A stretch of 47,986 nucleotides of DNA from the NCBI GenBank assembly GCA_016786565.1, contig JAEUVY010000006.1, forward strand, positions 1-47,986, given 5' to 3'. A program made the position numbers and the translations under genes. The first letter of the stretch is position 1; each line of letters opens with the position of its first letter. Shown here piece after piece: positions 3,497-45,854 of this stretch. The notes beneath the pieces are model-generated. The model searched no databases, was not told where the DNA came from, and saw nothing but the letters and a program-made list of their open reading frames with translations. Origin of the DNA: Flavipsychrobacter sp. (lineage in GTDB: Bacteria; Bacteroidota; Bacteroidia; Chitinophagales; Chitinophagaceae).

Positions 3497-6124
3497 GTGG
3501 CAAAAAAAGAAGTAGCGGAAACGCCCTTAATGAAGCAGCATAAGGAGATCAAGTCCCGATACCCCGATGCTGTATTACTTTTTCGCGTAGGCGATTTTTA
3601 CGAGACTTTCAGTGAAGACGCGCACATTGCATCGCGCGTATTGGGCATCACCCTTACCAAGCGTTCTAATGGAGCCGCATCATCGGTAGATCTTGCAGGT
3701 TTTCCGCACCATTCGCTGGAAACCTACCTGCACAAACTGGTGAAAGCAGGATACCGCGTGGCCATATGCGACCAGCTGGAAGACCCGAAACTCACTAAGG
3801 GCATTGTGAAACGGGGAGTTACAGAACTGGTAACACCGGGCGTAGCCACCAGCGACAAACTTCTTGAAAACCGCACCAACAACTTCCTTGCAGTGCTGCA
3901 CCTTGCAGACCCACTGTGCGGTATTGCGTTCCTCGACATCACCACCGGCGAGTTCTATACCGCAGAGGGGAATATCGAGTATATGGACAAGCTCATGCAG
4001 AGTTTCCAGCCATCGGAGGTGATCCTGTCCAAATCTCAGGGCAAACGTTTCCGCGAGCAGTTTGACACACGGGTGTATACGTTTCAGCTCGACGAATGGA
4101 TATTCCGCGAACAGTATGCCTACGAACTGCTTTTGCAGCACTTTCAGACCCAATCGCTGAAGGGATATGGCATTGAGGATATGAAGGCCGCTATAACGGC
4201 ATGCGGCGTAGCTATCCACTACCTTAAAGACACCGAACATGCCAACCTGCAACACCTGAATACGCTGCAGCGGATAACCGCTACAGACTTTCTGTGGATG
4301 GACCGCTTCACCATCAGGAATCTGGAACTGGTGAACAGTTCTTACGAGCAGGGCAGCAACCTGCTGCAGGCAATAGACCATACGCACACCCCTATGGGGG
4401 CACGCCTAATGAAGCGCTGGATGATATTCCCGCTTTACGACATGCATCGCATCAATCAGCGTTTGGATCTCGTAAGTCAGTTTTTACTGGATCAAGACCT
4501 GAACATATCGCTGACCACGCTGGTAAAACAGACCGGCGACGTGGAGCGCCTTGTGGGTAAGATACCCCTGAAAAAGGCCAATCCACGAGAGGTACTGCAA
4601 CTGGCACGCAGCCTGCATTTCATGCAACAGTCGCGCGAGATATGCATGGCTTCGGACAATGACGCGTTGCGGGCTATGGCTGAGCCTATGCAACCGCTGG
4701 AGGAGATCAGGAAAAAGATCATTGAGACCATCAGCGAAGATGCGCCTGCCATAGCCGCAAAAGGAGGAATGATACGGGAAGGCGTATCTGAGGAACTAGA
4801 CCACCTGCGCACGATATCGCGCAGCGGCAAAGACTACCTGCTGCAGATACAGCAACAGGAATCGCAGCGCACAGGAATATCTTCGCTCAAGATCTCTTAC
4901 AACAACGTATTTGGTTACTACCTGGAGGTAACCAACTCGCACAAAGACAAAGTACCGCAAGACTGGATACGCAAACAGACATTGGCAAATGCCGAACGGT
5001 ACATAACGCCCGAGCTGAAGGAATATGAAGAAAAGATACTGGGGGCCGAAGACCGCATTCTGGCCATAGAAATGGACCTGTACCAAAAACTATTGGCCGC
5101 CATTGAGCCCTACATTGCCCCTATTCAGCACAACGCAAACATTACGGCGCAGCTGGATTGCCTGCTGTGTTTCGCGTACAATGCCAAGCAATATGGCTAT
5201 CATCGGCCACAATTGGTGAGCGACCCTATTCTCGACATACGTGAAGGTCGCCATCCGGTAATAGAACAAAGACTGCCACCAGGCGAAAGTTATATCACCA
5301 ACGATATCCGCCTGGACAAGACGGAACAACAGGCCATCATACTCACAGGCCCCAACATGAGCGGTAAGAGCGCGTTGCTGCGCCAAACGGCCATCATCAC
5401 CCTTATGGCGCACATGGGTAGCTTTGTACCCGCTGCGGCAGCTACGATCGGCCTTACAGACAAGATATTCACCCGTGTAGGCGCATCAGACAACTTGAGC
5501 GGCGGCGAAAGTACCTTCATGGTAGAGATGAACGAGACGGCCAGCATCATCAACAACCTGAGCGAGCGCAGCCTGGTTTTGCTCGATGAGATAGGTCGTG
5601 GTACAAGCACTTACGACGGTATTTCGCTGGCGTGGAGCATTGTTGAGTACCTGCATAACAGCCCGGCGCGGCCAAAAACACTTTTCGCGACACACTACCA
5701 CGAAATAAATGAACTGGAAAAACAGCTACCCCGTGTGCGCAACTACCACATCACGCACAAAGAGACCGGCAACAAGGTCATCTTCCTTCGCAAAATGGCA
5801 CCCGGCGGCAGTCGCCACAGCTTTGGCATACAGGTAGCGCGTATGGCCGGCATGCCGCCAAAACTGCTGGACCGCGCCAATGAGATACTGGCACAACTGG
5901 AAGAAAAACACACCGGCACCGGCAATGCAGAGACCATTCAGCAGAAAGTAAAGAACATTAAACCGGCCCCTAACTTTCAACTGAATATTTTTGACGGTGT
6001 TACCGACGATATTCGCCGCATACAGCAGCTACTGGAAGAGACAGACATCAACACCCTTACCCCAGTGCAGGCGTTGATGAAACTCAACGAGATGAAGGAA
6101 ATTGTGAAGCAATACGCGAAGTAG
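3497..6124 (+). CDS. mutS: DNA mismatch repair protein MutS
   Basis: An 875-residue MutS1-type mismatch sensor. The mismatch-binding F-x-E motif is at F34-E36 in GDFYETF, followed by connector, lever and clamp domains. The C-terminal ABC ATPase carries Walker A GPNMSGKS near residue 618, the signature region LSGGESTFMVEM, and Walker B LVLLDEIGRGTSTYDG with the H-loop FATHYHE. Length is normal for MutS1, so it is complete. The GTG start gives MAKKEVAETPLMKQH, which fits Bacteroidota MutS N termini better than the internal ATG at codon 12. It converges with the PAP2 gene, leaving 19 bp between stop codons. Confidence 0.98.
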   Translation: MAKKEVAETPLMKQHKEIKSRYPDAVLLFRVGDFYETFSEDAHIASRVLGITLTKRSNGAASSVDLAGFPHHSLETYLHKLVKAGYRVAICDQLEDPKLTKGIVKRGVTELVTPGVATSDKLLENRTNNFLAVLHLADPLCGIAFLDITTGEFYTAEGNIEYMDKLMQSFQPSEVILSKSQGKRFREQFDTRVYTFQLDEWIFREQYAYELLLQHFQTQSLKGYGIEDMKAAITACGVAIHYLKDTEHANLQHLNTLQRITATDFLWMDRFTIRNLELVNSSYEQGSNLLQAIDHTHTPMGARLMKRWMIFPLYDMHRINQRLDLVSQFLLDQDLNISLTTLVKQTGDVERLVGKIPLKKANPREVLQLARSLHFMQQSREICMASDNDALRAMAEPMQPLEEIRKKIIETISEDAPAIAAKGGMIREGVSEELDHLRTISRSGKDYLLQIQQQESQRTGISSLKISYNNVFGYYLEVTNSHKDKVPQDWIRKQTLANAERYITPELKEYEEKILGAEDRILAIEMDLYQKLLAAIEPYIAPIQHNANITAQLDCLLCFAYNAKQYGYHRPQLVSDPILDIREGRHPVIEQRLPPGESYITNDIRLDKTEQQAIILTGPNMSGKSALLRQTAIITLMAHMGSFVPAAAATIGLTDKIFTRVGASDNLSGGESTFMVEMNETASIINNLSERSLVLLDEIGRGTSTYDGISLAWSIVEYLHNSPARPKTLFATHYHEINELEKQLPRVRNYHITHKETGNKVIFLRKMAPGGSRHSFGIQVARMAGMPPKLLDRANEILAQLEEKHTGTGNAETIQQKVKNIKPAPNFQLNIFDGVTDDIRRIQQLLEETDINTLTPVQALMKLNEMKEIVKQYAK

Positions 6125-39794: not shown

Positions 39795-39804
39795 TGTTTT
39801 GTGA

Positions 39805-39833
39805 ATCGTCCTGAAATAAGTTTACACGTTTGC
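39805..39833 (+). repeat. Copy A of a GTCCTGAAATA-GTTTACAC repeat
   Basis: ATCGTCCTGAAATAAGTTTA followed by CACGTTTGC matches copy B at 40401-40429 at all but two or three positions. Both copies have the same orientation. It resembles insertion-sequence ends seen in Bacteroidota, but no transposase is near. Confidence 0.55.
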
Positions 39834-39906
39834 AAAACATCTCACCTTCCTACCTTCTCCCATCTTGTTCTTTTCTTTTCTACAGCGAAAAGAAAAAGAA
39901 CCAAAA

Positions 39907-39926
39907 CCTGCCTGCCGGCAGGCAGG
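39907..39926. repeat. 20-bp perfect palindrome, REP-like
   Basis: CCTGCCTGCCGGCAGGCAGG is fully self-complementary and is of the interspersed GC-rich palindrome type common between genes in Bacteroidota. Confidence 0.65.
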
Positions 39927-39944
39927 GAAAGCGCCGCCTTTCGC

Positions 39945-39963
39945 TCCCGAATGCTTTCGGGAC
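39945..39963. repeat. Hairpin repeat TCCCGAA...TTCGGGA, copy 1
   Basis: TCCCGAATGCTTTCGGGAC has a 7-bp stem with a 4-nt loop. The same 19 bases recur at 40377-40395. Confidence 0.65.
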
Positions 39964-40376
39964 TTCCGCGGGGCAAAAGGTCTGCTCTACGCTGTTTCGC
40001 ACTTCGCTGTGCAGCTTCATGGCGCTGGCATCTTTCCTATCGTCTACCAGATGATGGGGCTACGTGCCGGTTCCGCTTTCTCTTTACTATCGGGGCACGG
40101 CAACCACATCTACGGAAATATGAAGGCGCCATCAAGGGCTGGGCGGCAGTTCAACTATTTGGCATTCTTTTGACTTTGTCGGTTCGAGTTGACACGTAGG
40201 AAAGATTCTGCTGCTTCCCGGTGCGCAGTTTTCTTTTTGTTTTTGGATTGGGTGGATGGTTTGCGTTGATCGTCAATTGTTTATGCTTTTTCGGGACGTT
40301 TTTCAACTTCTCACTCCTTCCAAAAACTGCGCAAAAACTTCTCACTTCTTCTCACCTGCTTCTCATTTGCTTCCCA

Positions 40377-41931: not shown

Positions 41932-43194
41932 TCACCCTTTTATTTCGGTGAGGGCGCGCACCAGTTCGTCGAGCTCGGCAGTGGTGGTGTAGACATTGGG
42001 GGTGACGCGCACGCCATGCACTCCGGCGGCTTCGTTGTCTATAGCGACCGTGTAAATGCGGTACTTATCGAGCAGCACTTTGGCCAACGCAGCGGGCTTC
42101 ATGCCCCGCACACCCACATTGGCAATGGCGCAGGTGCGCTGCGGCTGCGACGGGCTGTACATAACAATATGCGGCAGCCTGCGCACGCGCGAGGTCCAGT
42201 AGTGCTGCAGGTAGCGCAGGCGTTCCTCCTTGCGGGCGGGGCCTATCTCTTCGTAATTGGCGATGGCATCGGCAATGGTGAGATCGGTGGCGGGCGGGTG
42301 GGTGCCGGTATGGTTCAGCCTCAGGATGTCGTCCTGCGCGCGGCCTTCCTCGGCAAAGACGGGCCATACCTTGCTGATGTGTTCTTTGCGCACATATAAC
42401 ATGCCCGCGCCAATGGGCACACTGAGCCACTTGTGAAGGCTGCAGCCGTAATAATCGCAACGAAGGTCGGGCAGGGAGAACTGTATGTGTGCCAGGGCAT
42501 GGGCGCCGTCTACCATTACCTGTACCCCCTTGCTGTGTGCCATGTCGCAGATCTTGCGCACGGGCAGGATGTGGCCAGTGATGTTGATCATGTGGCAGAC
42601 CATGAGCAGGCGGGTGCGCGGTGTGATAGCGGCCTCGTATGCGGCAACCACTTCTTCATCGGTCTGCGGATCGGGCGGGACGGAGATGAACCGGTTCACC
42701 ACCCCATATCTGCGTGATACCTGTTTGAACATATCGAGCATGGCACCATAGTCCTGATGGGCCATAACGGCCTCGTCGCCGGGTTTCCAGTCGAGCCCGC
42801 CGATGATCATATCCAGCGACTCGGTGGTGTTGCGTGTAATGATGACCTCATCGGAAGTGCAGCCCATCATGGCGGCAAGGCGATCGGCGGCTTTCTTCTT
42901 ATTATCGAACTGAACGGTGCGCATGTAGTAGGCCCCGTGCAGGTTGACCTCGTCTATGTGGCGCTTGTAGGCATCGAGTATATGGCGCGGCTGTATGCAG
43001 TAGTAGCCGTTTTCGAGGTTGATATAGTCGGGCTTGAGGTTGTATGTCCTGCGCACATTCAGCCAGTAGTCGTCGGTGGCGGCAGGCGGGTCGGGCTGCG
43101 GATCGGTACCGGCAATGTGTGCCAGCGCAGGCAGCGCCGTGATGCTGCCCAAACCCAGCAGCGAAGCGTTCTTGAGGAAAGTGCGTTTGTCCAT
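41932..43194 (-). CDS. Exported class-V aminotransferase-fold PLP enzyme
   Basis: A 420-residue pyridoxal-phosphate enzyme of the class-V aminotransferase fold, related to isopenicillin-N epimerase/cysteine desulfurase-type proteins. The N terminus (MDKRTFLKNASLLGLGS) resembles a Tat signal with K-R in place of R-R. The PLP lysine is K255 in CSLHKWLSVPIGAG; VMVDGAHALAHI carries the Asp and His of the cofactor site. The substrate is unknown. Its start codon overlaps the preceding stop by 1 nt (TAATG). Copies of two of its segments (residues 1-11 and about 116-126) lie upstream as relics. A second gene copy or repeated insertions into its 5' end explain them best. Confidence 0.9.
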   Translation of the reverse strand: MDKRTFLKNASLLGLGSITALPALAHIAGTDPQPDPPAATDDYWLNVRRTYNLKPDYINLENGYYCIQPRHILDAYKRHIDEVNLHGAYYMRTVQFDNKKKAADRLAAMMGCTSDEVIITRNTTESLDMIIGGLDWKPGDEAVMAHQDYGAMLDMFKQVSRRYGVVNRFISVPPDPQTDEEVVAAYEAAITPRTRLLMVCHMINITGHILPVRKICDMAHSKGVQVMVDGAHALAHIQFSLPDLRCDYYGCSLHKWLSVPIGAGMLYVRKEHISKVWPVFAEEGRAQDDILRLNHTGTHPPATDLTIADAIANYEEIGPARKEERLRYLQHYWTSRVRRLPHIVMYSPSQPQRTCAIANVGVRGMKPAALAKVLLDKYRIYTVAIDNEAAGVHGVRVTPNVYTTTAELDELVRALTEIKG

Positions 43195-43748
43195 TAGTAA
43201 GCTTTTTTAAAGGTTTTTCTCTTCAAAACAATCACGTCGAAACTTCTATATAATGCTATTTTATCGTCGTTAATAATACAAACTTTAAGAGTTTCATTGC
43301 CATAACCAACTTTATAGTCAGTATCAAAGACCACCATTATTTTCTTATGACAATTCTCATCTAACCTTCTCACAAAATCATCCGCAACCTTGTTACTATC
43401 TAACCACAAATCAAAACTAGAACTATACCCAGCTGAGTAATCATTCTTAACTACTCTCAAAAGATCTGATTGCTTATGAATCAGGTTAAATTTGCAGGTG
43501 TCAAACTCCAAAAACTTATTGGAAGTAGTGATATAATTGGAATCAATTTCAAATTCACCGTTGCTTCGGTTTGAATACAATTGCCTTCTTTCTTTTCTTT
43601 CACTTTCATTCTCCATACTAGGAGTAATTATCTCCAGTTCTTTGTAGCCCGATATTTGCCACCTTCCGAATAATCGATGACTTTTGAATTCTTGCGCACA
43701 TGCTGAACAAGACAAAACGACTAGTAAGTAACAAAATAGAAATTTCAT
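43194..43748 (-). CDS. AT-rich hypothetical protein b of the accessory island
   Basis: A 184-residue exported protein with a signal peptide or lipobox (MKFLFCYLLVVLSCSACAQ). A beta-rich mature part follows (FGRWQISGYKELEI, lipocalin-like GRW motif). Base composition is clearly more A/T-rich than in the flanking genes. No named family is recognised. Its stop codon overlaps the ATG of the PLP enzyme by one base, so translation could be coupled. A role as an immunity or antitoxin-type lipoprotein is suggested only by the neighbour at 43868-44269. The frame extends upstream to 43787; ATG 43748 is chosen for the signal peptide. Confidence 0.65.
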   Translation of the reverse strand: MKFLFCYLLVVLSCSACAQEFKSHRLFGRWQISGYKELEIITPSMENESERKERRQLYSNRSNGEFEIDSNYITTSNKFLEFDTCKFNLIHKQSDLLRVVKNDYSAGYSSSFDLWLDSNKVADDFVRRLDENCHKKIMVVFDTDYKVGYGNETLKVCIINDDKIALYRSFDVIVLKRKTFKKAY

Positions 43749-43790
43749 TCCAAACGAATTAAAGCGCCAAATTGATTCTCCCCCCATAAT

Positions 43791-43860
43791 CCCGTAGTGT
43801 TGCGTGCAATGATAATCTCAGCGGCAACGAAGCGTTCTTGAGGAAAGTGCGTTTGTCCAT
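43791..43860 (-). pseudogene. Relic b: start plus internal segment of the PLP-enzyme gene
   Basis: On the minus strand, 43828-43860 is identical over 33 bp to the first codons of the PLP enzyme (43162-43194): MDKRTFLKNAS. Directly after it, 43791-43824 is similar over 34 bp (27 matches) to the codons at 42821-42854 that encode EVIITRNTTE. Here it reads EIIIARNTT but in another reading frame. About 100 codons between the two parts are missing. It is a non-coding remnant between genes c and b. Confidence 0.8.
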
Positions 43861-43867
43861 CAGCATC

Positions 43868-44269
43868 TCATCTTTTAAAAGCTTCAAATGCTTCGAAAAT
43901 AGATACGCGTATTTCATCTGTCGTATCCATTTTCTGAATATCCTCCAGTTTCTCTTCCACTAATGAAATTATCTCATTCCTATAATCACTATGATTATCC
44001 CAAAAATCCTTTTCGGATGTCAGGACGTTCTTTAATAAGTCTCCTTCATAATAATCTCCTTCTGCAAGAATGTTCGTTTTTAGTACCTTAATCGCAATAG
44101 GAATTAAAATTGGTAAAGCGATATTCTGCCCAATCATAATCCTAAGGTCTTCGATTTCAAAATCATCTAAATTTTTCTTCCTCAATTGATGGCAGGTTAC
44201 TACTAAATGTGAGTCGAACTCCGGTTTCCCCCAATAAACACTTTCGATTTGCTCAATAGTATTCTTCAT
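43868..44269 (-). CDS. CdiI-like contact-dependent-inhibition immunity protein
   Basis: A 133-residue cytosolic protein, rich in acidic residues and helices. The pattern of YWGKPEFDSHLVVTCHQLRKK, DLRIMIGQNIALPILIPIAIKVL, EGDYYEGDLLKNVL and a C-terminal FEAFEAFKR matches the CDI-system immunity family that I know as CdiI_2. Such proteins neutralise a cognate CdiA-type toxin in the cytoplasm. No toxin gene is adjacent, so it is an orphan. It is A/T-rich compared with its surroundings, which suggests transfer. Its stop lies 7 nt before relic b. Confidence 0.8.
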   Translation of the reverse strand: MKNTIEQIESVYWGKPEFDSHLVVTCHQLRKKNLDDFEIEDLRIMIGQNIALPILIPIAIKVLKTNILAEGDYYEGDLLKNVLTSEKDFWDNHSDYRNEIISLVEEKLEDIQKMDTTDEIRVSIFEAFEAFKR

Positions 44270-44311
44270 GATTCAACTATTCGCATTTAAAAAACAACTT
44301 GTATTCGTATC

Positions 44312-44345
44312 TCGGTAGTGTTGCTTGTAATGATCACCTCTGCGA
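44312..44345 (-). pseudogene. Relic c: internal segment of the PLP-enzyme gene
   Basis: It matches 28 of 34 bases of the segment at 42821-42854 (codons for EVIITRNTTE). On the minus strand it reads EVIITSNTTE. It lies between gene a and gene c and supplies the last codons and stop of gene a. Confidence 0.7.
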
Positions 44346-44873
44346 CTTCCATTTTCTGATTACCCCAATAGCAAATCCAATCGTCTCATTAGCTTCAGAG
44401 TTAGTTGTGTACATCCTGTAATTATCAACAGGATCACCAAAGTAAACTATTCCAAATTCCGGCATCCAGTAATAATGACAACTCACATCGTAGACACCCT
44501 CTTCATCATAAAAATACGAATATAATGAATATCTTTTTCCCGAAGTAATTATTGCTGTGTCGTCCACATACCTAAAAACCACTTTAGCGCCTTTACGTAC
44601 GGTGTCATCATTGTAAATCAGGTCTTTACTGCCGATGCCTCCACTGTAAAACACCTTTGATTTGTCCTTTAAATTGAATACAAAAAGTTTAGAAAAGCTA
44701 TTACCCGTATTACAGTCCAAAACAACGCTGTCATTCCTAACTGTCACCGTTTGAGAAAAATAACAGGTATCGTTTGGGAATCGTGAATGACTCCCGACCC
44801 AATAATGATCATACCCTTTTTCCTTACACCCTATCGCCAAAAGCGATATCAAACAACAGTATATTCCGCGCAT
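44334..44873 (-). CDS. AT-rich hypothetical lipoprotein a of the accessory island
   Basis: A 179-residue probable lipoprotein (LLAIGC lipobox near residue 16) with a beta-rich, aromatic-rich mature part (DHYWVGSHSRF, HYYWMPEFGIVYFGD). No family is recognised. It is A/T-rich. Its last residues (KWKSQR) and stop are encoded by relic c, so its original 3' end may be lost or altered. The gene follows relic a, the duplicated PLP-enzyme start at 45004. An immunity or surface-exclusion role is conceivable but unsupported. Confidence 0.6.
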   Translation of the reverse strand: MRGIYCCLISLLAIGCKEKGYDHYWVGSHSRFPNDTCYFSQTVTVRNDSVVLDCNTGNSFSKLFVFNLKDKSKVFYSGGIGSKDLIYNDDTVRKGAKVVFRYVDDTAIITSGKRYSLYSYFYDEEGVYDVSCHYYWMPEFGIVYFGDPVDNYRMYTTNSEANETIGFAIGVIRKWKSQR

Positions 44874-44975
44874 CCTATATTAGACTGCATTTTAGCTAAA
44901 TTCCACAAGCATGTAACGCTGGCTGTTTTTCGCATCATGATGTTGTTACCCGCATTGCCAGCCGTCACCGCCGCA

Positions 44976-45004
44976 AAGCGTTGGAGGAAAGTGCGTATGT
45001 CCAT
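44976..45004 (-). pseudogene. Relic a: start of the PLP-enzyme gene
   Basis: On the minus strand the 29 bases read MDIRTFLQR and match the enzyme's start at 43162-43194 except for one substitution and a 2-base loss that shifts the frame. The upstream sequence (45005-45060) probably is the enzyme's original promoter region. A weak continuation at 44921-44950 resembles the EVIITRNTTE segment, but with only about 16 of 27 matches. Confidence 0.6.
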
Positions 45005-45080
45005 AAAAGTAACGTTGTGGCAACCGGCCATTTACCGGTTAACCACAAAATACAAAACGCAGTGAAACAAAGTAGCGGAA

Positions 45081-45854
45081 CTACAGTTGCCAGTGTTCTT
45101 CGAGCCAGCTCTTCATGGGGTTGCTGGTGAAGTCGATGGTAACGGGAACGACTGAAGCATAGCCTTCTTTGAGGGCTTCCACATCGGTGCCGTGGCCTTT
45201 GTCCATATTAACGAACTTGCCAACCATCCAGTAATAGTCGCGTCCGCGCGGATCCTTGCGGTGATCGAACTGCTCTTGCCAGCGCGCATATGCCTGACGG
45301 CAGATCTTGAGCCCTTTGAAGTCGGCAGCTGACACCACCGGCACATTCACATTGAGCAACAGATGCTCGGGCACGGGCTGCGACAACATGCGTGCAGTAA
45401 GCGTTTCGGCTACCTGCGCGGCAATGTTGAAGTCGGCATCAAAGCTAAAATCGAGCAGGGAGAAACCTATGGACGGAATACCCTCTATAGCCGCCTCCAT
45501 GGCCGCACTCATAGTGCCGGAATAAATGACGTTGATAGAATGATTGGCACCGTGGTTGATGCCACTGAGGCACACATCGGGCTTGGTATGCAGTATCTTG
45601 TCGCGGGCAAGCTTCACACAATCGGCCGGTGTGCCGCTGCACTGCCATGCCTCCACATCATCAAACACATCGACCTTATCAAGCCGAAGGGGTTCGCCAA
45701 TGGTGATAGCGTGACCCATACCCGACTGCGGGCTATCGGGTGCCACCACTACTACCCTACCCAGGTGCTTTACCGCGTTTACGAGCGCCCTGATACCGGG
45801 AGCAGTAACACCATCATCGTTCGTTATGAGTATAACCGGCTTATCGTGCTTCAT
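45081..45854 (-). CDS. surE: 5'/3'-nucleotidase SurE
   Basis: A 257-residue metal-dependent phosphatase acting on nucleoside monophosphates. The Asp pair in ILITNDDGVTAPGI, SPQSGMGHAIT, SGINHGANHSINVIYSGTMSAAMEA and the complete C terminus identify SurE. It follows sppA by 16 bp on the same strand. Confidence 0.97.
   Translation of the reverse strand: MKHDKPVILITNDDGVTAPGIRALVNAVKHLGRVVVVAPDSPQSGMGHAITIGEPLRLDKVDVFDDVEAWQCSGTPADCVKLARDKILHTKPDVCLSGINHGANHSINVIYSGTMSAAMEAAIEGIPSIGFSLLDFSFDADFNIAAQVAETLTARMLSQPVPEHLLLNVNVPVVSAADFKGLKICRQAYARWQEQFDHRKDPRGRDYYWMVGKFVNMDKGHGTDVEALKEGYASVVPVTIDFTSNPMKSWLEEHWQL

Follow-up and report, generated by a model that had tools for sequence, protein, structure and literature searches.

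How did pieces of an enzyme gene come to lie between small genes directly upstream of that same, still intact gene? The question was raised by a stretch of 47,986 nt from Flavipsychrobacter sp. (assembly GCA_016786565.1, contig JAEUVY010000006.1; this whole stretch is the window and its own genome, of 3.82 Mb, is G000), in which an intact gene for a pyridoxal phosphate (PLP)-dependent enzyme is preceded by three small cargo genes, a, b and c, and by fragments of its own 5' end. We compared the locus with those of its relatives (loci and genomes are cited by L and G numbers). The island is probably a time-ordered stack of small genes that were inserted successively in the first third of the conserved PLP-enzyme gene, likely by homologous recombination. 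The comparison showed that the relic fragments come from the region between the start codon and about codon 125-129, that cargo ends just before a relic or the intact start, and that cargo varies by species.

The order of genes on the minus strand of the window, on which every part of the stack lies, is S49 peptidase, SurE, a START relic, gene a, an END relic, gene b, a START and an END relic joined, gene c and the intact PLP gene. START denotes nt 1 to about 37 and END nt ~342-375 of the 1263-nt PLP gene. The intact gene (41932..43194), which forms the downstream end of the stack and is its docking gene, encodes a predicted exported Aminotran_5 protein of 420 aa that has the class-V aminotransferase fold (PF00266 at E 8e-42, 144 bits against a Pfam gathering score of 21.5); the nearest NCBIfam equivalog, PvdN, was far under its cut-off (146 of 650 bits). 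The stop codon of gene c (43194..43748) shares one base with the PLP start codon. Upstream of gene c lies relic 3, the END part of which (43791..43823; PLP nt ~342-371, codons ~114-124; aligned at 43823-43794 with a score of 35 against a shuffle maximum of 30) directly abuts, at 43824, a START part that is identical to PLP nt 1-37 at 36 of 37 positions (43824..43860). Gene b (43868..44269) ends 7 nt from this START. It is preceded by a junction core (GAGATACGAATACAAGTTG, 44295..44313, 16/19 to the core) that is common to END relics in other species, and by the END part of relic 2 (44311..44340; PLP nt 346-375, 27/30 identical), which overlaps the last codons of gene a (44334..44873), so that the stop codon of gene a lies inside the relic. 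We looked for a START part or an interior of relic 2 in the window and found none. Relic 1, a more decayed START relic (44970..45004; PLP nt 1-37, score 43), adjoins the SurE-PLP spacer (45005..45080), presumably the original PLP promoter region. The first-pass annotation of the window had described pieces of the PLP gene copied between three A/T-rich small genes, two of these pieces joined directly in one relic, and genes b and c ending 0-7 nt before enzyme starts, and each of these descriptions was borne out.

Aligned locally with the PLP gene, the 1886 nt that separate it from SurE gave four matches with scores of 69, 45, 43 and 35. All four exceeded the maximum from 200 dinucleotide shuffles (30), and reverse-strand matches scored at most 20, indicating that the matches are better than chance. 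G+C content (GC) dropped from 0.55-0.63 in the PLP gene to 0.31-0.40 across 43200-44800, and a 21-nt START pattern allowing up to three mismatches occurred exactly three times in the whole genome. Chance or low complexity as the source of the relics was rejected on the basis of the shuffles and of upstream scans with a 6-kb downstream control. We also rejected the idea that END is merely the best-conserved patch of the gene, since the most conserved 24-mer of the 5' part is START and END is unexceptional.

For the comparison, 80 loci of the PLP enzyme (61-94% identical) were kept, and relics were surveyed in the window and 86 relatives (78 of the 80 kept loci and eight more); one scan took 84 of the 87, skipping L089, which lacks upstream DNA. 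A total of 17 relics was found, three each in the window and L078 and one each in L044, L052, L059, L065, L070, L072, L075, L077, L094, L098 and L120, with L072 (nhmmer E 1.9) and L044 (E 0.02) counted on weak END matches plus the junction. Among loci with at least 500 nt of upstream sequence, 12 of 29 from the same genus had relics upstream of their own PLP gene as compared to 1 of 55 others. All relic pieces derive from nt 1 to ~386 of the gene (START, n=12; END, n=9), and the END fragments break off at about nt 370-386, near codon 125 (nine cases in eight loci). By a strict control rule, which overlooked the relics of L065 and L094, the PLP gene scored in 7 of 27 loci, as compared to 1 of the 124 other genes of these loci, which is a full tandem paralogue. 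A 25-nt START pattern matched 29 times in 20 of 35 same-genus genomes, always at the PLP locus (20 intact starts and nine relics), while the reversed control gave no match. Single weak upstream matches outside nt 1-386 (L041, L086, L099, L102, L123, and L132 on the minus strand with E 3e-6 and 70% over 92 nt) and matches in the downstream control (L067, L074, L080, L085, L096, L098 and L116) were counted as chance.

Near-complete relics lie upstream of the intact gene in L059 (nt 1-374) and L065 (nt 1-381), as in a target that is split and regenerated. Since the closest relative, G022 (94% identical enzyme), keeps nt 1-374 whole as a single relic, followed by one small gene and then the intact gene, we read the separate pieces in the window as the ends of displaced 5' fragments that have lost their middle. 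The earlier identification of the pieces as remnants of the enzyme therefore stands, except that they are not two independent pieces: both are ends of a single displaced 5' fragment, which covers nt 1 to ~386. Three same-genus species (L040, L042 and L058) have an empty S49-SurE-PLP site with a short gap and no relic. Other species hold other genes between the same kinds of remnant, which, together with the empty sites, supports the proposal of the first-pass annotation that genes were captured repeatedly and left a remnant each time. Strand and order of the relics agree with those of the gene, as they would after an in-place tandem duplication of the enzyme gene, its decay and the later arrival of small genes between the copies. 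We give that scenario very little credence. No relic of nt 387-1263 was found in the same-genus loci beyond a weak match in L041 (E 0.002) of a kind that was also seen in the downstream control; moreover, the divergence of the long relics is mostly synonymous and the END relics have a junction in common.

The cargo genes are rich in A/T and differ from species to species, and most belong to no known family. The GC of the 450 nt before the PLP gene was 0.30-0.36 in 18 cargo-bearing loci versus 0.39-0.51 in five empty loci, in which this stretch is mostly SurE. Gene b, described earlier as CdiI-like, indeed belongs to the CdiI_3 immunity family (PF18616, E 4e-32, 110 bits against a gathering score of 28), and with E 2.5e-5 it matched an immunity protein CdiI in the PDB (5j5v chain C); a weak typeIV_DinG match (PADLOC, E 9e-4) was set aside as chance. 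The suggestion that the cassettes are orphan immunity genes thus held by family for gene b and did not extend to genes a and c. At the cut-offs applied, three family libraries gave these two no match bar a weak one for gene c (NKAP in Pfam, E 0.03, under cut-off and set aside), and they had no PDB fold match under E 0.001; their models were of low confidence (pLDDT 65 and 59) and were not used. Both look exported when read by eye, as had been noted, gene a being a small lipoprotein-like protein and gene c a small protein with a signal-peptide-like N-terminus. No toxin family was found among the three cargo genes in the same family scans.

The same three genes are not conserved at this locus. 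Homologues of gene b occur in 10 of the 35 same-genus genomes and are near the PLP gene in only two, the other eight being on different contigs than the PLP gene. One of them (67-68%) lies 1.8 kb upstream of the PLP gene in L082 (G009), where no PLP relic was found; the interval between the CdiI_3 homologue and the PLP gene holds, at -1309 to -296 relative to the PLP start, a repeated short sequence with similar antisense open reading frames (ORFs) of ~70 aa. Gene a is present in 3 of the 35 genomes, with a 57-58% homologue at the PLP locus of G047 (L077), and gene c only in G000 (1 of 35). A search of 5.8 billion proteins returned three homologues of gene a beyond the window's own and two of gene c besides itself. 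The gene a homologue of G046 (L173, contig G046:C15) lies between 40-nt direct repeats (87.5%; reverse-complement positions 3816-3855 and 5088-5127) in a stretch without a recognised PLP gene, and may be in another cassette-like setting.

When 33 candidate proteins were compared, related cargo turned up at the PLP loci of different species in five groups: gene a with L077; gene b with L082; L079 with L094; L073 with L079 and L075; and L120 with L151. The PLP gene of L151/L152 is split over two contigs (the end of G017:C21 and the start of G017:C169) at about codon 162-167, the assembly breaking within the docking gene. Pfam, run on 20 of the relatives' 30 cargo candidates, gave no match above cut-off, the weak ones including Abi_2 (E 0.0099) and DUF1493 (E 0.13). 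PADLOC, run on seven proteins, identified the last cargo of L078 as PD-T4-5-like phage defence (E 1e-12), and NCBIfam, run on nine, one L120 cargo as STM3941-like. A terminator-like hairpin (CCCCGCAGAGCGGGG) is located about -857 to -800 relative to the PLP start in L078, after the gene-nearest START relic and before the PD-T4-5-like gene. L148 (-770..-91) and L065 (-2574..-1838 from the PLP start) each have before the PLP gene a small minus-strand gene pair, possibly toxin-antitoxin, in which a short partner accompanies a protein that looks nucleotidyltransferase-like by eye.

Past about codon 125, seven of the nine END relics leave the enzyme sequence for a common 19-nt junction with the core GAATTACGAATGCAAGTTG. 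We scanned both strands of the loci compared (2.29 million positions, about 1.15 Mb, mostly PLP loci) for this core and obtained nine matches of at least 15/19, of which seven were at END relics, including all five above 15, and two lay elsewhere at 15/19; random 50-mers scored 14 at most in 3000 draws. The likeness extends for about 50 nt in L065 and L120. A long form of the junction was found only at the PLP locus of G048 among the 35 same-genus genomes; among 294 genomes of the family, its only matches were one at the PLP locus of G153 and one within a coding sequence of G336 that is unrelated. These patterns are too strict to recover known diverged junctions and the 19-nt core was scanned in the compared loci, so that further sites may exist elsewhere. 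One exact 20-mer of the junction gave no match in viral contigs.

A constant border near codon 125 points either to one founder junction or to a site-specific enzyme. For the latter, circular cassettes (junction, cargo and PLP 5' end) would be joined at a short site around codon 125 by a recombinase whose gene lies elsewhere, in the manner of target-regenerating islands, and the recurrent border at about nt 370-386 followed by the conserved 19-nt junction in seven of nine relics is in its favour. We nevertheless consider site-specific insertion unlikely. No integrase, transposase or recombinase family was found in 39 of the 40 window ORFs of at least 100 aa, the unscanned ORF being 39801-40199, where short overlapping ORFs, possibly non-coding, lie between a pseudouridine synthase and a lipocalin-like gene. 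The long junction form, within the reach of its strict patterns, was rarely away from PLP loci, with only the G336 coding sequence as an example. Furthermore, the L120 relic is a hybrid, 99% identical to its own gene over nt 1-101 and 72% over nt 322-379, and indicates a cross-over at another place in the 5' part; such a split is expected of a cross-over inside the 5' copy that joined the recipient's start to the donor's old END and junction. In the genus of L120, three of four genomes hold the enzyme gene, and inspection of the two other upstream regions revealed no relic.

Alternatively, a single founder insertion could date back to the common ancestor of the genus, with its junction inherited and nothing afterwards but swapping of cargo and gene conversion among the repeated 5' ends. 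This fits with the confinement of relics and junction to one genus plus L120 and with two long relics being closest to their own gene. We judge it distinctly improbable, given the empty SurE-PLP site in the three same-genus species, the several START relics of graded preservation in the window and L078, and the junction of about 50 nt that L065 and L120 have in common even though the 5' part of L120 is at most 70% identical to that of any other species, which suggests transfer. If the swapping is taken to include stacking, the founder model merges with successive insertion.

Under successive insertion by homologous recombination, each event near codon 125 would likely add a small gene and a fresh copy of the first ~125 codons, leaving the old start upstream as a relic while the enzyme gene was rebuilt. 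The agent would be recombination with DNA of relatives, for which the repeated 5' ends would provide homology on one side and the rest of the gene on the other. With a donor arranged as old 5' end, junction, cargo, own 5' end and rest of the gene, one cross-over would occur in the 5' copy and one downstream, and the newcomer would thus come to lie next to the intact gene and the older cargo farther upstream. The spacing of the cargo is in agreement with this order. The distance from cargo stop to intact start had a median of 27 nt (range -4 to 142, 17 genes) and that from cargo stop to relic start was -4 to 26 nt (eight genes), so that relic starts look like former intact starts behind older cargo. 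Preservation of START rises toward the gene, with 23 then 30 of 30 positions in the window and, by a small gradient, 23, 25 and 26 of 30 in L078, and because the START nearer the gene is the better preserved in these two multi-START loci, new cargo would enter beside the intact gene.

Divergence of the two near-complete relics from their own intact copies was mostly synonymous. The synonymous (dS) and nonsynonymous (dN) divergences were 0.36 and 0.007 for L065 (24 and two changes) and 0.45 and 0.025 for L059 (29 and seven changes); if half of the changes fell on the decaying copy, P was 3e-6 and 6e-4, respectively. This pattern suggests that relic and intact copy were working alleles during their divergence, in different cells, and that one was imported rather than duplicated in place. 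Long relics were closest to the gene of their own species (93% for L065 compared to 70% for the next), and the donors would therefore be close kin. Among L078, L079, L094 and L089, synonymous divergence of the 5' third (A, 0.37-0.47) was under that of the rest (B, 0.51-0.79), a step on which we do not rely.

The entire stack may be read from the enzyme's original promoter, with cargo and enzyme co-expressed. A single transcript across the island is possible because no terminator-like site was found in 43100-45100. The SurE-PLP spacer of the window and the spacer ahead of the L059 relic have GCGTTTTGTATTTTGTGGTTAACCG in common. Cargo would be retained for protection, as the CdiI_3 protein in the window and the PD-T4-5 homologue in L078 suggest. 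The genome has a ComEC-type competence gene, a family that was also matched in 10 of 14 control genomes.

The relic starts may in addition have a role of their own. A relic start continues in frame into the following cargo protein in L077 and L078, the relic frame of L094 ends after eight codons and overlaps the next start codon, and both relic ends are found more often than the middle, all of which would be expected if the PLP start and first codons had been copied because they serve as translation start or leader for the next cargo. Such a role may hold alongside the other readings; as the explanation of the relics it is highly improbable, as it leaves the END relics and the junction unexplained and the START relic of L070 has lost its start codon.

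Several observations weigh against successive insertion by homologous recombination. The same border in all lineages is unexpected for plain homologous recombination unless there was one founder junction. The END relics of window relic 3 and L052 (two of nine) are without the junction core, and the core itself was read by eye off the END relics. Cargo-like genes precede the PLP gene without a detected relic in L073, L079, L088, L090 and L151. With only a quarter of the changes on the decaying copy, P becomes 0.02 for L065 and 0.65 for L059, making the test weak, and low dN could equally reflect a translated, useful relic. When ranked against 87 genes, the own gene was the best match for just 9 of 17 short relic fragments, and the three STARTs of L078 match genes of other species equally well or better. 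As for the divergence step, none of 190 pairs passed correction at four-fold sites alone (smallest p 0.003, with 0.00026 required), and in four of six pairs the divergence was best split at codon 87-92 rather than at 125. Finally, the comparison was between species.

More tentatively, at somewhat less than an even chance, the locus may be a recombinase-free acquired-defence array, in which the 5' third of the enzyme gene would be the docking site for a genus-wide pool of immunity and anti-phage cassettes and each capture would rebuild the enzyme and place the newcomer under its promoter. If so, the locus would be an ordered record of past bacterial and phage conflicts, and arrays could be built without a dedicated recombinase, the homology being supplied by a conserved enzyme gene that is not lost in the process. 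The order of events would be legible in the DNA, every START relic marking where the gene once began. Any genome can be searched for the signature, in which a gene is preceded by fragments of its own 5' end, each following an orphan small gene.

We saw no paper describing such a locus among the matches listed by searches of the open-licence literature, subscription literature being mostly outside the search. How bacteria gather orphan immunity genes is an open question, and is stated as such for the recombinase-associated acquired interbacterial defence (rAID) arrays of Bacteroidales, the formation of which is called an area of active research (PMC12247911). Like these arrays, which are from the same phylum, the locus has co-oriented short genes, at least one known immunity family (here gene b only), no recognised toxin and conserved intergenic motifs (PMC12247911). 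Its motifs are START, END and the junction, and these are parts of, or borders to, the anchor gene. The rAID arrays have an adjacent predicted tyrosine recombinase, whereas none was found among the scanned ORFs of the window, whose array is anchored by a conserved PLP enzyme gene that itself supplies the motifs. Genomic islands split and restore a tRNA gene and leave the displaced fragment (PMC4383910); here, by contrast, no integrase was found in the scanned window ORFs, inserts comprise about one small gene, and a protein gene is rebuilt over ~375 nt, with stacking. As in our case, two further papers propose that immunity genes are gained, lost or kept through homologous recombination, with no dedicated recombinase involved: one concerns homology-facilitated illegitimate recombination that gives orphan immunity genes of the type VI secretion system (T6SS) in Vibrio (PMC9711863), the other recombination between tandem immunity genes of the type VII secretion system (T7SS; PMC9484751). 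The homology there lies in the secretion cluster or in immunity genes and spacers, and here in an unrelated enzyme gene. For orphan cdiA-CT/cdiI modules of contact-dependent inhibition (CDI) and rhs-CT modules of rearrangement hotspot (Rhs) genes, it is proposed that a new module inserts into a gene and pushes its end away, and that pieces of the parent remain in a tandem array; these pieces supply homology for further exchange (PMC3150448, PMC4927057). Repetition of parent-gene fragments with the modules was also found here; however, in CDI and Rhs the 3' end of a toxin gene is pushed downstream, whereas here the 5' end of an enzyme gene is pushed upstream, and the parent is Aminotran_5, with no toxin piece recognised. 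The locus thus lacks one defining feature of each of its two nearest counterparts, the toxin parent gene of CDI/Rhs and the recombinase of rAID, and yet it works like displaced CDI/Rhs modules and looks like an rAID array.

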